A DNA stretch of 64,000 nucleotides from Ensifer adhaerens (lineage in GTDB: Bacteria > Pseudomonadota > Alphaproteobacteria > Rhizobiales > Rhizobiaceae): the NCBI RefSeq assembly GCF_001270265.1, contig NZ_LGAP01000001.1, forward strand, positions 248,001 to 312,000, written 5' to 3'. Positions 13,641-62,863 of the stretch are shown here, piece after piece. Positions within the stretch are counted from its first letter, which is position 1. Each line of letters starts with the position of its first letter. The translations under genes were made by a program, and so were the position numbers. Under the pieces are notes generated by a model, which was given only the letters and a program-made list of their open reading frames with translations, had not been told where the DNA came from and did no database searches.

Positions 13641-15203
13641 GTGATGTTGTCCTTTGTCATTGTTGCCGTTGTCGCCATCGGCGGTGCGTTCGGCGCAGCG
13701 ATCTTCTATGTCTATGGCCGCTTCGGTCGTCGCCCCCACGGAGACCCGTCCTCCGCGCTTCCTGTCGCCGACGCCGATACTGAACTCGATCGAGCCATCG
13801 TCCCGCTGCTTCGCACCCATTCCGGAAAGAATGGCATATCGCTGGTCTCTGACAGCATCGAAGCCTTTATCGTCAGGGCGCATGCGGCTCGAACGGCTGG
13901 CCGCAGCCTCGACCTGCAATATTACTACTGGAAGGATGACCTGACCGGTTTCCTGCTCACGCGCGAAATCCTGGTGGCAGCGGATCGCGGCGTCCACGTG
14001 CGCTTGCTGCTCGACGATATCAATGCCGGCATCCACGACCGGATGTGCATCGCGCTCGATGCCCATCCGAACATCGATGTGCGGCTCTTCAACCCAAGTC
14101 GTGCCCGCACCGATCGTATCCGCCGCGGTTTCGAGATGGCCATCCGCGCCTTCAGCGCCACGCGCCGCATGCACAACAAGCTCTGGGTTTCCGATGCGCG
14201 GGTGGCCATCGCCGGCGGGCGCAACATCGGCGATGCCTATTTCGACGCGGCGGAGCTTTCAAACTTTCGTGACCTCGATGTCTGGATGATCGGGCCGGTA
14301 GTCGATCAGGCCTCGGCAATGTTCGATCGTTACTGGAACAGCACGTCGGTGCTGCCGATCGGGAAGCTGCGCACTCCGCGCAAGCAGTATCTGCCGGCGC
14401 TGAGGGAAGCGCTCGATATGCATGCGCGCACGCCTGCCGCCCGCTTCTATCTGGAACGCGTGACCGACGCGGTGGGCGAAGAGACGTTCTATCGCGGTTC
14501 GAGAAAGCTGTACTGGATAGACGATGTCCGTCTTGAGGCCGACCCGCCCGAGAAGGCGCTGATGCAGAAGCGGCAGAACTGGCTGCTGCGCGAACTCTTC
14601 CCGCTGATCCAGGCTGCCAAGCGGGATTTGCGCATCATTTCGCCCTACTTCATTCCAGGCACAGCCGGGACGCGCGAACTGACGGCCCTGGTGAACAGGG
14701 GCGCCCGGGTCTCGGTGCTCACCAATTCACTGGCTGCCACCGACGTGGCGGCCGTTCACGGTTGCTATGTGAAGTATCGTCGAAACCTCGTGCGCGCCGG
14801 TGTCGAACTTTTCGAACTGAAAGAGCAGGGCGATGCCGTCGAAAGCCATCGCATGTCGCTGTTCGGCCGCCGCAATGCCAGTCTGCACAGCAAAGCCTTT
14901 GTCGTCGATGGGCTGAGCGGCTTCGTCGGTTCGATGAATTTCGACCCACGATCGGCATCGCTGAACACCGAAATGGGCGTCGTGTTTGCGGATGCAGCAC
15001 TTGCCGGTGAACTCGCCACGATGTTCGAGGAGGAGACGGCCCCGTCCGTCAGCTACCAGCTGAGCCTCGAAGGTGCGCGGCTCGTCTGGCGCGACCGAAC
15101 CAACGGGACCGAGCGGCTGCTGCGGCGCGAGCCCGACGCCAGCTTACTGAGGCGCGTCATCGCCGGGATCATCCGTATTCTGCCGATCGAATCGCAGCTC
15201 TGA
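13641..15203 (+). CDS. Phospholipase D/cardiolipin synthase-like protein
   Basis: 520 aa with an N-terminal membrane anchor (residues 2-25) and two HKD catalytic motifs: HNKLWVSD (His178, Lys180, Asp185) and HSKAFVVD (His416, Lys418, Asp423), each followed by the GGRNIGD or GSMNFD turn. This is the cardiolipin synthase C-like (YmdC) layout, so it may make cardiolipin from phosphatidylglycerol and another lipid at the inner membrane, or act as a phospholipase D. Start is GTG 13641 or the next codon ATG 13644; no clear choice. It follows the EEP gene closely. Confidence 0.87.
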   Translation: MMLSFVIVAVVAIGGAFGAAIFYVYGRFGRRPHGDPSSALPVADADTELDRAIVPLLRTHSGKNGISLVSDSIEAFIVRAHAARTAGRSLDLQYYYWKDDLTGFLLTREILVAADRGVHVRLLLDDINAGIHDRMCIALDAHPNIDVRLFNPSRARTDRIRRGFEMAIRAFSATRRMHNKLWVSDARVAIAGGRNIGDAYFDAAELSNFRDLDVWMIGPVVDQASAMFDRYWNSTSVLPIGKLRTPRKQYLPALREALDMHARTPAARFYLERVTDAVGEETFYRGSRKLYWIDDVRLEADPPEKALMQKRQNWLLRELFPLIQAAKRDLRIISPYFIPGTAGTRELTALVNRGARVSVLTNSLAATDVAAVHGCYVKYRRNLVRAGVELFELKEQGDAVESHRMSLFGRRNASLHSKAFVVDGLSGFVGSMNFDPRSASLNTEMGVVFADAALAGELATMFEEETAPSVSYQLSLEGARLVWRDRTNGTERLLRREPDASLLRRVIAGIIRILPIESQL

Positions 15204-57798: not shown

Positions 57799-58266
57799 TC
57801 AGGGTACGATGAGACCGCCGCGATAGTCGAGTTCGTAGGCCTCGTCGCCGTCGACAAAAATAACCTCACGTCCGGAAAAGTGCCCTGTGTCGCCACGGCT
57901 GCTGTCGATGTAATAGCCATAGGCGTGCCGATATTCCATTCCGCCGAGGAAGTGCTGCTTCTCCCGATACATGGTCTCGAGCGCGGCCTTGATGACGATG
58001 CCGGCGCGTTCCGCATCGATCAGGTCGGGTCGGATAACGCGGCCGAAGTAATTCATGGCCCAACGGGTATCGTCCTCGAGCCAGACGGTCTCCTGCCCGG
58101 CGAAATCGGTTCCACCGAAATAACTGTCGAGATACCGCCACTGACCGCGCTCATAGCCGATATCGCGCGATCCCACGCGCGAAGGAGCACGCGCTCTACC
58201 ACCGCCGACATACGTCTTCGATTTGGCTTCCACGATGAAGTCTTTGAGTTGCTCGATGCTGGCCAT
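57799..58266 (-). CDS. DUF5680 domain protein
   Basis: 155 aa. It starts MASIEQLKDFIVEAKSKTYVGGGRA and runs through YLDSYFGGTDFAGQETVWLEDDTRWAMNYFGRVI and FLGGMEYRHAYGYYIDSSRGDTGHFSGREVIF, a pattern I place in DUF5680. That domain occurs alone or fused to HTH_3/XRE regulators; its function is unknown. AGGGTG lies before the ATG at 58266; the frame is open 123 bases further but overlaps the previous gene. A LexA-like box stands 55 bases upstream (58321-58335), suggesting DNA-damage control. Confidence 0.78.
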   Translation of the reverse strand: MASIEQLKDFIVEAKSKTYVGGGRARAPSRVGSRDIGYERGQWRYLDSYFGGTDFAGQETVWLEDDTRWAMNYFGRVIRPDLIDAERAGIVIKAALETMYREKQHFLGGMEYRHAYGYYIDSSRGDTGHFSGREVIFVDGDEAYELDYRGGLIVP

Positions 58267-58320: not shown

Positions 58321-58335
58321 GAACAAAAAGGGAAC
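58321..58335 (-). promoter_or_regulatory. LexA-type SOS box upstream of DUF5680 gene
   Basis: GAACAAAAAGGGAAC fits the alphaproteobacterial LexA direct repeat GAAC-N7-GAAC (GTTC-N7-GTTC on the other strand). It lies in the 80-base gap between the two minus-strand genes, 55 bases ahead of the DUF5680 start, and shares GAACAAAAA-NN-GAACAA with the box at 59069. Confidence 0.5.
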
Positions 58336-58919: not shown

Positions 58920-59068
58920 GTCGCTGTTGCTCCGTGTGGTTGCTCTAGTCATAGGCGCGATGGGCGGAGCACTCAAGGTTTCGGTTAATGGTCTCGAGCG
59001 GTCATTGTCGACGCAGTTAACCATGCGCGGTGGAAAGCGGGCGCTGTGTCCGACAGCGGTTGACGCGT

Positions 59069-59083
59069 GAACAAAAATAGAAC
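59069..59083 (+). promoter_or_regulatory. LexA-type SOS box upstream of 28-aa membrane ORF
   Basis: GAACAAAAATAGAAC matches GAAC-N7-GAAC. It is 33 bases before the small ORF's ATG, where a LexA repressor would overlap the promoter; TTGACG at 59060-59065 could be the -35. It lies about 150 bases from the divergent exported-protein gene. Confidence 0.6.
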
Positions 59084-59116
59084 AAAGTAAAAACATAACG
59101 GAAAAGGAGCCATGTT

Positions 59117-59203
59117 ATGACTGATTTTGTTCGTGACCTCGCCGCCTTCACATCGATGGGCCTGTTCGTCGCCAGCGTTGCCTTCATCGCTCTCGGGCTT
59201 TGA
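59117..59203 (+). CDS. 28-residue single-helix membrane protein, possible SOS-induced small protein
   Basis: A 28-codon frame starting MTDFVRDLAAF and continuing into a hydrophobic helix TSMGLFVASVAFIALGL to the stop. AAGGAG stands seven bases upstream, an optimal ribosome site, and a LexA-type box lies just before that. Size, single membrane helix and SOS-like control resemble SidA of Caulobacter crescentus, a 29-aa LexA-controlled division inhibitor, though sequence kinship is not claimed. It is 162 bases upstream of dnaE on the same strand. The evidence for translation is good; the role is inference. Confidence 0.65.
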   Translation: MTDFVRDLAAFTSMGLFVASVAFIALGL

Positions 59204-59337
59204 TCTGAGGGCATATTTTCGAAGAGGCGCGATCCCGATGCGGGGTCGCTCGATACCATCCCGGCACCGCACCGTTGAAAAGAACGCCGGCCCACGATGC
59301 AAAACTGGACATGGCGGGTGATAAGCGGGATATCCTG

Positions 59338-59361
59338 ACACCCTGACAGGAATCAGGGTGT
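59338..59361 (+). promoter_or_regulatory. Leader hairpin covering the dnaE ribosome site
   Basis: ACACCCTGA (59338-59346) and TCAGGGTGT (59353-59361) make a perfect 9-bp stem with loop CAGGAA, four bases before the dnaE ATG. The right arm contains AGGGTG, the only plausible Shine-Dalgarno sequence. Confidence 0.45.
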
Positions 59362-59365
59362 AGAA

Positions 59366-62300
59366 ATGGCGGATCAAGGCAGCGTGGAACGGAACGATCA
59401 GACGGCTGCGAACCCGCAGTTCGTGCATCTGCGTGTTCACTCGGCTTTTTCGCTGCTCGAAGGGGCGTTGCCTCTGAAGAAGGTGATCGGCAAGGCCGTG
59501 GCCGACGCCCAGCCGGCGATCGGCATCGCCGACACCAACAATCTTTTCGCAGCCCTCGAATTTTCCCAGAAGGCGGCCGAAGACGGCCTGCAGCCGCTGA
59601 CCGGTTGTCAACTGTCGATCGACATGGAAGACGAGGCCGACGGCGATCGTCGCGGCCACGCCCAGCAGCTTGCCAAGCTGCCAGCCATCGTCCTGATCGC
59701 AGCGACGGACGACGGCTATACGCGATTGGTCGATCTGGTGAGCCGCGCCTATCTCGGTGGGGAAGGCAGCCAGGTCACGCGGATTACGCGTTCGTGGCTT
59801 GCAGAGGCTGGTACCGATGGGTTGATCGCACTTTCGGGTGCCGGCGGCGGCCCGATCGATATGGCGGTGAAATCCGGCTCGACGGCCCTGGCCGAGGCGC
59901 GTCTGGAGGCCCTGAAGGATCTCTTCGGCGATCGGCTCTATATCGAATTGCAGCGGCACGGCAACTTCGACCGCCGACACGAAAGCCGGATGATCGATCT
60001 GGCGTACAAGTTCGATGTGCCGCTGGTGGCGACCAACGAGGCGTTCTTTCCCTCGCCATCCGACTACGACGCGCACGACGCGTTGATGGCGGTTGCGCAT
60101 AACGCCATGGTTTCCGACGACAGCCGCTTCCGCTTGACGCCGGATCATTACCTCAAGAGCCGGAAGGAGATGGCGGCGCTTTTCGCCGATCTGCCCGAAG
60201 CGCTCGAAAACACCATCGAGATCGCGCGACGGTGCTCGTTCATGCTGAAGACGCGCGGGCCCATTCTGCCGCGGTTCACCGGCGCCTCCGACGATCCGGA
60301 GGAGGCCGAGCGCGCCGAGTCCAGCGAGTTGCGCCGACAGGCGGAAGAGGGGCTCGACGACCGCTTGCGCAAGCTCGGCATGGCGCCCGGCTATACCGAG
60401 GAAGAGTACCGCGAACGGTTAGCGTTCGAACTCAGCGTCATCGAGCGCATGAAGTTCCCCGGCTACTTCCTGATCGTTGCCGACTTCATCAAATGGGCCA
60501 AGCAGCACGACATTCCCGTCGGCCCGGGCCGCGGTTCCGGCGCGGGCTCGCTCGTCGCCTATGCGCTGACGATCACCGACGTCGATCCGATGCGGTTCTC
60601 GCTGCTGTTCGAACGCTTCCTCAATCCTGAACGCGTGTCGATGCCCGACTTCGACATCGACTTCTGCCAGGATCGGCGCGAAGAAGTCATTCGCTACGTC
60701 CAGGCGAAGTACGGCCGCGAGCAAGTCGCGCAGATCATCACCTTCGGTTCGCTCCAGGCGCGCGCAGCGCTGCGCGATGTCGGCCGTGTGCTCGAAATGC
60801 CCTACGGCCAGGTCGACAAGATCTGCAAGCTCGTGCCCAACAACCCGGCCAACCCGACGCCGCTGTCGAAGGCGATCGAGGAAGAGCCGCGTCTGCAGGA
60901 GGAGGCGGAAAAGGAACCGGTCGTCGCCCGTCTTCTCGACATTGCCCAGAAGATCGAAGGCCTTTATCGCCACGCCTCGACCCACGCCGCCGGCATCGTG
61001 ATCGGTGATCGGCCGCTGTCGAAGCTGGTGCCGATGTATCGAGATCCGCGCTCCGACATGCCGGTCACCCAGTTCAACATGAAGTGGGTCGAGCAGGCTG
61101 GCCTCGTGAAGTTCGACTTCCTCGGCCTGAAGACGCTGACAGTGCTGAAGGTGGCCGTCGATTTCGTCAAGGCGCGCGGCATCGAGGTCGATCTCGCCAG
61201 CATTCCGCTCGACGACGAGAAGACCTACGAGATGCTGTCGCGCGGCGAAACGGTCGGCGTGTTCCAGGTGGAAAGTGCCGGCATGCGCAAGGCGCTGATC
61301 GGCATGCGGCCCGACTGCATCGAGGACATCATCGCTCTGGTGGCGCTCTATCGCCCGGGCCCGATGGAGAACATCCCGGTCTACAACGCCCGCAAGCACG
61401 GCGAAGAAGAGATCGAATCGATCCATCCCAAGATCGACCATCTGCTCAAGGAAACCCAGGGCGTTATCGTCTACCAGGAACAGGTGATGCAGATCGCCCA
61501 GGTTCTGTCGGGCTATTCGCTCGGCGAAGCCGACCTTCTGCGCCGCGCCATGGGTAAGAAGATCAAGGAGGAGATGGACAAGCAGCGCGCCCGCTTCGTC
61601 GACGGCGCGGTCAAGAACGAGGTGTCGAAGCCGCAGGCCGACCTGATCTTCGATCTTCTTGCCAAGTTCGCCAACTACGGCTTCAACAAGTCGCACGCTG
61701 CTGCCTACGCCATCGTTTCCTACCAGACGGCCTATATGAAGGCCCACTATCCGGTCGAGTTCCTGGCGGCGTCGATGACACTCGACATGGCCAACACGGA
61801 GAAGGTCAACGACTTCCGTCAAGATGCTGGGCGCCTCGGCATCCAGGTGATTGCCCCGTCGGTCCAGTCTTCCTTCCGGCATTTCCAGACCGGCGACAAG
61901 CGCATCTATTATTCATTGGCGGCCATCAAGGGCGTCGGCGAATCGGCGGTCGAGCACATCGTTGCCGTTCGCGGCGACCGCGAGTTCGCGAGCCTTGAGG
62001 ATTTTTGCCTGAGGATCGACCCGAAGCTGCTCAACCGGCGTGTGTTCGAAAGCCTGATCGCCGCCGGCGCCTTCGATTGCTTCGGTTACGATCGGGCCGA
62101 GCTGGTCGGCGGTCTCGATCGCATCCTGGGCTTTGCCCAGCGCGCGCAGGAAAACAAGACGAGCGGACAGAGCGATATGTTCGGCGCAGGGGCGGCCACC
62201 GGACCGGAACGGATCGCGCTTCCCACCTACACGCCTTGGCTCGCCTCGGAAAAGCTGCATCGCGAATTCCAGGTTCTGGGCTTTTATCTCTCGGCCCATC

Positions 62301-62863
62301 CGCTCGACACCTATAATCCTCTGCTTGCCAAGATGCGCGTCCAGACCTTCGGCGATTTTGCCGGTGCGGTGAAGAAGGGGGCAACGGCCGGACGGCTCGC
62401 CGGCACCGTTACCTCCAAGCAGGAGCGCAAGACCCGGACCGGCAACAAGATGGGCATCATCGCCTTCTCGGATTCATCCGGCCAGTTCGAGGCCGTGCTG
62501 TTCTCTGAAATGCTGCACCAGTACCGCGACCTGCTCGAGCCCGGTAAATCGCTGGTGATGACCGTACAGGCGGAGGAACGGCCGGAAGGCATCGGCCTTC
62601 GCATCCAGACCCTGCGCTCGCTCGAGGAAGAATCGCTGCAGATGCAGAAGGCATTGCGCGTCTATGTGCGCGATTCAGGACCGCTGAAGTCCATCGCCGC
62701 CCATTTGAACGCCAGGGGCGAGGGCCTCGTTTCCTTCATCGTCATCAAGGACAACGGGCAGCGCGAGATCGAGGTCGAACTCAGCGAGAAGTTTCGGATT
62801 TCGCCGGAGATCGCAGCAGCACTTCGCTCGGCCCCGGGTGTGGTCGACGTCGAGCTCGTCTGA
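59366..62863 (+). CDS. dnaE: DNA polymerase III subunit alpha
   Basis: 1165 aa replicative polymerase. The N-terminal PHP domain begins FVHLRVHSAFSLLEGALPL; the polymerase active site has PDFDIDFCQDRREEVI with Asp428 and Asp430, preceded by GPGRGSGAGSLVAYAL. HhH (tandem helix-hairpin-helix) and an OB fold (AGTVTSKQERKTRTGNKMGIIAFSDSSGQFEAVLFSE) lie toward the C terminus. Length is normal for DnaE1; it is the housekeeping enzyme, not the ImuB-linked DnaE2, judged by length and lack of imuAB. The start follows a hairpin that masks its ribosome site. Confidence 0.97.
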   Translation: MADQGSVERNDQTAANPQFVHLRVHSAFSLLEGALPLKKVIGKAVADAQPAIGIADTNNLFAALEFSQKAAEDGLQPLTGCQLSIDMEDEADGDRRGHAQQLAKLPAIVLIAATDDGYTRLVDLVSRAYLGGEGSQVTRITRSWLAEAGTDGLIALSGAGGGPIDMAVKSGSTALAEARLEALKDLFGDRLYIELQRHGNFDRRHESRMIDLAYKFDVPLVATNEAFFPSPSDYDAHDALMAVAHNAMVSDDSRFRLTPDHYLKSRKEMAALFADLPEALENTIEIARRCSFMLKTRGPILPRFTGASDDPEEAERAESSELRRQAEEGLDDRLRKLGMAPGYTEEEYRERLAFELSVIERMKFPGYFLIVADFIKWAKQHDIPVGPGRGSGAGSLVAYALTITDVDPMRFSLLFERFLNPERVSMPDFDIDFCQDRREEVIRYVQAKYGREQVAQIITFGSLQARAALRDVGRVLEMPYGQVDKICKLVPNNPANPTPLSKAIEEEPRLQEEAEKEPVVARLLDIAQKIEGLYRHASTHAAGIVIGDRPLSKLVPMYRDPRSDMPVTQFNMKWVEQAGLVKFDFLGLKTLTVLKVAVDFVKARGIEVDLASIPLDDEKTYEMLSRGETVGVFQVESAGMRKALIGMRPDCIEDIIALVALYRPGPMENIPVYNARKHGEEEIESIHPKIDHLLKETQGVIVYQEQVMQIAQVLSGYSLGEADLLRRAMGKKIKEEMDKQRARFVDGAVKNEVSKPQADLIFDLLAKFANYGFNKSHAAAYAIVSYQTAYMKAHYPVEFLAASMTLDMANTEKVNDFRQDAGRLGIQVIAPSVQSSFRHFQTGDKRIYYSLAAIKGVGESAVEHIVAVRGDREFASLEDFCLRIDPKLLNRRVFESLIAAGAFDCFGYDRAELVGGLDRILGFAQRAQENKTSGQSDMFGAGAATGPERIALPTYTPWLASEKLHREFQVLGFYLSAHPLDTYNPLLAKMRVQTFGDFAGAVKKGATAGRLAGTVTSKQERKTRTGNKMGIIAFSDSSGQFEAVLFSEMLHQYRDLLEPGKSLVMTVQAEERPEGIGLRIQTLRSLEEESLQMQKALRVYVRDSGPLKSIAAHLNARGEGLVSFIVIKDNGQREIEVELSEKFRISPEIAAALRSAPGVVDVELV

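Follow-up and report, generated by a model that had tools for sequence, protein, structure and literature searches.

A SMALL GENE BEFORE dnaE1

Immediately before dnaE1, in the 64-kb stretch of Ensifer adhaerens DNA that was analyzed as a whole (64,000 nucleotides, hereafter the window), lies a small open reading frame (ORF) with a promoter-like sequence, a LexA-type box and a Shine-Dalgarno site (Table 1). Its 28-aa product, MTDFVRDLAAFTSMGLFVASVAFIALGL, reaches a hydropathy peak of 2.37 over 15 residues and falls, with one predicted membrane helix, within the ~30-aa class of such peptides. The sequence-only reading had described a box of the GAAC-N7-GAAC form, an ORF starting 33 bases past it with an AAGGAG site, and a place just before dnaE; the box coordinates are as it wrote them, the sequence confirms the positions of the ORF and of AAGGAG, with 33 nt from box to ATG, and dnaE starts 162 nt past the ORF stop. 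This dnaE is the top scorer among the four DnaE-type genes of the genome, and the three others (L039, L040, and L041), all above the TIGR00594 cut-off, are possibly damage-tolerance polymerases.

TABLE 1 Features at and upstream of dnaE1, in window coordinates
Feature	Position	Strand	Remarks
-35-like TTGACG	59060..59065	+	Read from sequence; putative promoter element
LexA-type box GAACAAAAATAGAAC	59069..59083	+	GAACN7GAAC form; LexA binding predicted
-10-like CAAAGT	59083..59088	+	17 nt past TTGACG; read from sequence, putative
Shine-Dalgarno AAGGAG	59104..59109	+	7 nt 5′ of the ATG; kept across the genus
ORF for a 28-aa single-helix membrane protein, SidA-type	59117..59203	+	ATG at 59117, stop ends at 59203; assigned from sequence, conservation, and profile comparison
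dnaE1	59366..62863	+	Constant downstream neighbor; TIGR00594, 1193.5 bits

A promoter spacer is a usual location for a repressor. The LexA-type box appears to sit within just such a spacer, that of a likely promoter formed by TTGACG and CAAAGT, and this position suggests a repressor-type placement. Taken by itself the box proves nothing, because GAACN7GAAC occurs three times in the window compared with 2.22 times expected by chance, and the box count, showing no excess, was dropped as evidence in its own right. In the genome lexA and recA each have a single match over cut-off, and boxes of the same form lie upstream of both (GAACACATATGGAAC and GAACATGAATCGAAC, respectively).

The two other boxes in the window are separate observations. 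A leftward gene (57799-58266, minus strand), encoding a DUF5680 protein (PF18931, 82.5 bits), has the second box (58321-58335) 54 nt upstream of its likely start. At least one box is present at this site in 15 of 16 same-genus genomes, several of them carrying two boxes ~50 nt apart, and the DUF5680 gene is likely a second SOS gene. The third match, GAACCGCGATAGAAC, is at 14486-14500 on the minus strand.

Two further elements flank the 28-aa ORF. Between its Shine-Dalgarno sequence and its start lies a two-codon ORF, ATGTTATGA (59112-59120), whose TGA overlaps the ATG and whose alignment columns are conserved in the genus. On the other side, in the interval from 59204 to 59365, the alignment of the 16 same-genus genomes shows a conserved block ahead of dnaE, containing CTGGACATG and GGATATCCT, within intergenic sequence that otherwise varies; this block is possibly the promoter or operator of dnaE1 itself.

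CONSERVATION AND CODING SIGNATURE WITHIN THE GENUS

The sequence-only reading had staked itself on the ORF and the box being conserved in relatives, together with the Shine-Dalgarno sequence, and conservation is what was found: all three are kept in the 16 same-genus genomes (own genome included), the ORF at 82-100% identity and the box with TTGAC directly 5′ of it in every case. Mean column variability across these genomes falls from 0.274 upstream of the box to 0.037 inside it and 0.011 between box and start. Within the ORF, variability at codon positions 1, 2, and 3 is 0.071, 0.000, and 0.136, and pN/pS over the 13 distinct genus sequences is 0.15 in frame as opposed to 1.19 in frame +1. 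The same comparison over 21 distinct 28-codon sequences from Rhizobiaceae gives 0.40 as opposed to 0.86. In a wider set of relatives searched with the peptide at E<=10, the ORF was recovered in 33 of 61 genomes, the weak matches being partly due to chance.

It is conceivable that all of this amounts to a random box ahead of a random hydrophobic ORF, given that the window contains about as many boxes as expected and that short hydrophobic ORFs are common. This idea is contradicted by the conservation of ORF, box, and spacing and by the coding-type pattern of substitutions, as well as by the shuffled controls and the profile ranking described below, and we hold it to be extremely improbable. A conserved coding gene, preceded by a conserved box and promoter-like site, stands before dnaE1.

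THE REGION BEFORE dnaE1 ACROSS THE RHIZOBIACEAE

Regions before dnaE1 were collected from 96 of 101 Rhizobiaceae genomes, about 95 genera; of the other five, one had no match, three had partial matches and the last would have repeated a region already covered. Two of the 96 regions (L394 and L407) had <400 nt upstream. A perfect box followed by a small membrane ORF is present in 49 of the 96; in 7 more an ORF of the matching kind occurs with no perfect box, and the remaining 40 have neither. TTGAC stands within 14 nt upstream of the box in 24 of the 49. At some loci, L311 and L313 among them, three GAAC repeats in 11-nt steps (two overlapping boxes) take the place of the single box.

The 56 peptides, including the 7 that lack a perfect box, which had been chosen by residue motif, are 27-33 aa long and share a set of nearly invariant residues: D7 in 55, F17 in 55, A/S at position 10 and F/L at position 11 in all 56, R/K at position 6 in 46, and S13 in 40. 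Charged residues crowd into the first nine positions. Because lysine and arginine number 45 there and 4 afterwards, but aspartate and glutamate likewise 94 and 5, a cytoplasmic N-terminus is weakly suggested.

Might the small ORF, or the LexA-type box itself, serve chiefly to tune dnaE1 expression under damage, with the peptide idle in division? A leader ORF would be expected to lie in the 5′ region of dnaE1, as this one does, a uORF role has been raised for such sORFs generally (PMC10117765), and the constancy of the dnaE1 linkage is imposed by the design of the surveys, which selected by position before dnaE1 and searched for the unit only there. Against this, the amino-acid sequence is kept (pN/pS 0.15), being that of a membrane helix in which particular residues are fixed, the ORF stop and the dnaE match lie anywhere from 85 to 526 nt apart in the 49 Rhizobiaceae regions, and the alignment of the intergenic sequence between the 28-aa ORF and dnaE gives no strong common RNA fold. 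The Caulobacter counterpart, moreover, is a known division inhibitor (see below). We therefore regard a mere leader function as unlikely.

THE WIDER CLASS

When the class was searched with this one peptide, 8 of 190 genomes matched at E<=1, its own genome being the sole convincing one, and given this weakness a positional survey was used instead. Of the 275 genomes that gave a DnaE match, it covered 148, from 78 families, taken from the higher-scoring matches listed, some of which were skipped. Three of the 148 regions had <600 nt upstream, the placement of L103 lacked a tblastn match, and L053, a box carrier on first reading, was excluded once tblastn had placed it. A box within 600 nt before dnaE1 is found in 28 of the 148 regions, from 14 families (27 of 147 when the window itself is excluded), and each of the 28 has a membrane ORF of 20-60 aa starting within 75 nt past the box; the other 120 regions lack a perfect box with such an ORF. 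In 20 dinucleotide shuffles of the same regions, the mean number of regions with a box was 1.25 (maximum 5), and a box with an ORF never occurred. On the reverse strand there were 10 boxes, none with an ORF, and 88 stretches within dnaE gave none.

Boxes in the opposite orientation occur before dnaE1 in 10 of 206 regions, all from the class survey; for three of them a membrane ORF is listed behind the box, of which those at L098 and L100 look plausible.

How far the set hangs together is a separate matter. On inspection of the list, 24 of the 28 ORFs have, ahead of the helix, a D/E preceded by K, R, Q, E, or G, the exceptions being L068, L104, L128, and L152; the Methylorubrum and Methylobacterium ORFs are likewise without an acidic residue there. 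Because this D/E is missing from them, such outer members may not be homologous to the rest.

RELATION TO SidA

SidA of Caulobacter crescentus, whose gene we take to be CC1927, shares with the rhizobial ORF its length (29 aa), its single helix and a LexA-type box, and is represented by the NCBIfam model NF033228. It is an inner-membrane protein that interacts with FtsW; in Caulobacter it makes contact with FtsW/FtsN, and its overproduction stops division (PMC4211646). The sidA gene carries the locus tag CCNA_02004 (PMC11034885), and Caulobacter dnaE is given as CC1926 in a table of PMC1839093.

The sequence-only reading had called the peptide SidA-like, and the arrangement of genes in Caulobacter relatives bears this out, since a SidA ORF behind a box precedes dnaE1 there as well, in the same place as the rhizobial ORF. 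Named genomes were found with PleD as bait, and the DnaE query matched 29 of 30. Before dnaE1, 14 of the 29 have a box with a small membrane ORF, compared with at most one in shuffles of these regions. Caulobacter, Phenylobacterium, and Brevundimonas are among the 14, with ORFs of 29-31 aa, their starts picked by Shine-Dalgarno sequence; in two more Caulobacter genomes the ORF is present and a perfect box is not. The ORF before dnaE1 in a Caulobacter metagenome-assembled genome (MAG) scores 73.7 bits against NF033228 (cut-off 35) across all 29 positions, and that of Brevundimonas 31.8 bits, under the cut-off. The thirtieth genome, a MAG filed as Caulobacter vibrioides, gave neither a DnaE nor a peptide match, so the adjacency of SidA and dnaE1 is a statement about Caulobacter relatives, not about the C. 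crescentus locus. A fifteenth box carrier, Pleomorphomonas (L276), has two boxes before dnaE1, and a small membrane ORF behind them was not found.

By the NF033228 definition (at least 35 bits), the rhizobial peptide is not SidA: the model does not detect it at E<=10, and none of 121 genomes of the order, its own included, has a match over cut-off. Among sub-threshold matches in the order, three in its own genome lie elsewhere and were set aside. The same model matches 5 of the 38 peptides of a further alignment (A3) at E<=1.

Profile comparison reaches further. One alignment (A1) of 14 peptides, to which Rhizobiaceae contribute 12, Devosia one and a different family of the order one, was set with hhalign against a second (A2) of ten, of which named Caulobacter, Phenylobacterium, and Brevundimonas genomes supply nine and a genome with a holdfast gene in its family the tenth; residues 1-21 align without gaps, with a probability of 71.5 and E 3.6e-5. 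A hidden Markov model (HMM) of the 56 Rhizobiaceae peptides gives the ten Caulobacter-type peptides 11.1-17.0 bits, and in 5,000 shuffles of each peptide this score was reached by none for eight of them and by one for the other two. The same HMM, run blind to boxes over 4,401 open frames of at least 18 aa from 147 upstream regions of other families, placed box-linked ORFs at all of ranks 1-13, with E from 0.0023 (best) to 3.4, and all 10 frames at E<=1 are box-linked; of the 27 box-linked ORFs altogether, 16 fall within the first 45 ranks and 11 outside. At the level of profiles, then, the rhizobial and SidA-type peptides are detectably related, the similarity being weak for any single peptide.

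What they have in common is the in-register motif R6-[DE]7-x-x-[AS]10-[FL]11-x-S13-x-x-x-F17, of which the Caulobacter MAG peptide carries R6, E7, A10, L11, S13, and F17. The half of SidA after F17 (WMM..) is not retained in rhizobia, and because the second half of the helix differs, the target could differ too. It is imaginable that the rhizobial peptide is an SOS-induced small membrane protein that shares an ancestor with SidA and acts elsewhere, for example by lowering membrane potential or on a different envelope enzyme; SOS-induced single-helix peptides with different effects do exist, DinQ being an example (PMC3567139). We find this distinctly improbable, in that the two kinds of peptide share their first two thirds, counted from the N-terminus, R/K-D/E, A/S, L/F, S, and F all being in register. 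Unlike SidA in the second half of its helix and below NF033228 detection, the rhizobial protein, with its predicted function, is best filed as a divergent, dnaE1-linked SidA-type protein and not as NF033228 SidA.

A PREDICTED SOS CHECKPOINT ON DIVISION

The reading we favor is that the 28-aa ORF is a real gene and encodes an inhibitor of the SidA type, repressed by LexA and acting on the FtsW/FtsI/FtsN step. We think this quite likely, the function being predicted from the comparisons above. In the undamaged cell, LexA would be bound to the box within the promoter and the gene would be off. Upon damage, RecA on single-stranded DNA would stimulate LexA self-cleavage and the gene would be transcribed, after which the 28-residue protein would insert in the inner membrane as one helix. 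Like SidA, this helix may bind the late divisome inside the membrane, through FtsW and perhaps FtsN, and FtsW/FtsI/FtsN would be held inactive, such that cells elongate and division waits for repair.

DidA, YneA, and SosA are likewise small membrane proteins and arrest division once damage has occurred, and in this they resemble the predicted protein. YneA also interacts with FtsW (PMC13396833), and DidA is a 71-aa, SOS-independent protein that binds FtsN (PMC4211646). The A31K variant of FtsW gives strong suppression of SidA and none of DidA (PMC4211646).

Parts of this locus have been seen before. In Sinorhizobium, ribosome profiling found an sORF in the 5′ UTR of dnaE1, sORF25, to be translated, the account of it giving no function (PMC10117765); neither LexA nor "SOS response" appears in the main text of that paper. 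In S. meliloti, a close relative, sORF25 occupies the same place as our ORF, and because the two were compared by position, not by sequence, we infer its identity with the SidA-type peptides. The suggestion that the gene may be undescribed in this group is accordingly only partly right. Within the parts of the literature that our search covered, no SOS division inhibitor of rhizobia was found, and neither a SidA counterpart in rhizobia nor the dnaE1 linkage was named, although an earlier mention may exist. In that literature a single paper treats sidA, dnaE, Caulobacter, and LexA together, a review that speaks, in its relevant passage, of SidA in C. crescentus only (PMC9578287).

IMPLICATIONS

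On a wider scale, we consider it likely that SidA is one lineage's form of an old alphaproteobacterial inhibitor of septal wall synthase, a LexA-controlled single helix encoded before the replicative polymerase gene. Its other members would have been overlooked because of their size, ~30 residues, and because they have diverged too far for the existing model to detect. If so, such an inhibitor would be present in Rhizobiaceae, Devosia, and other families, with dnaE1 linkage as its hallmark, and a single SOS division checkpoint would serve a large share of the class. The positional rule of looking before dnaE1 finds divergent SidA-type proteins that the present model misses. For the nitrogen-fixing symbionts, the analysis names a candidate SOS division inhibitor with a sequence, a putative promoter, and a predicted target.
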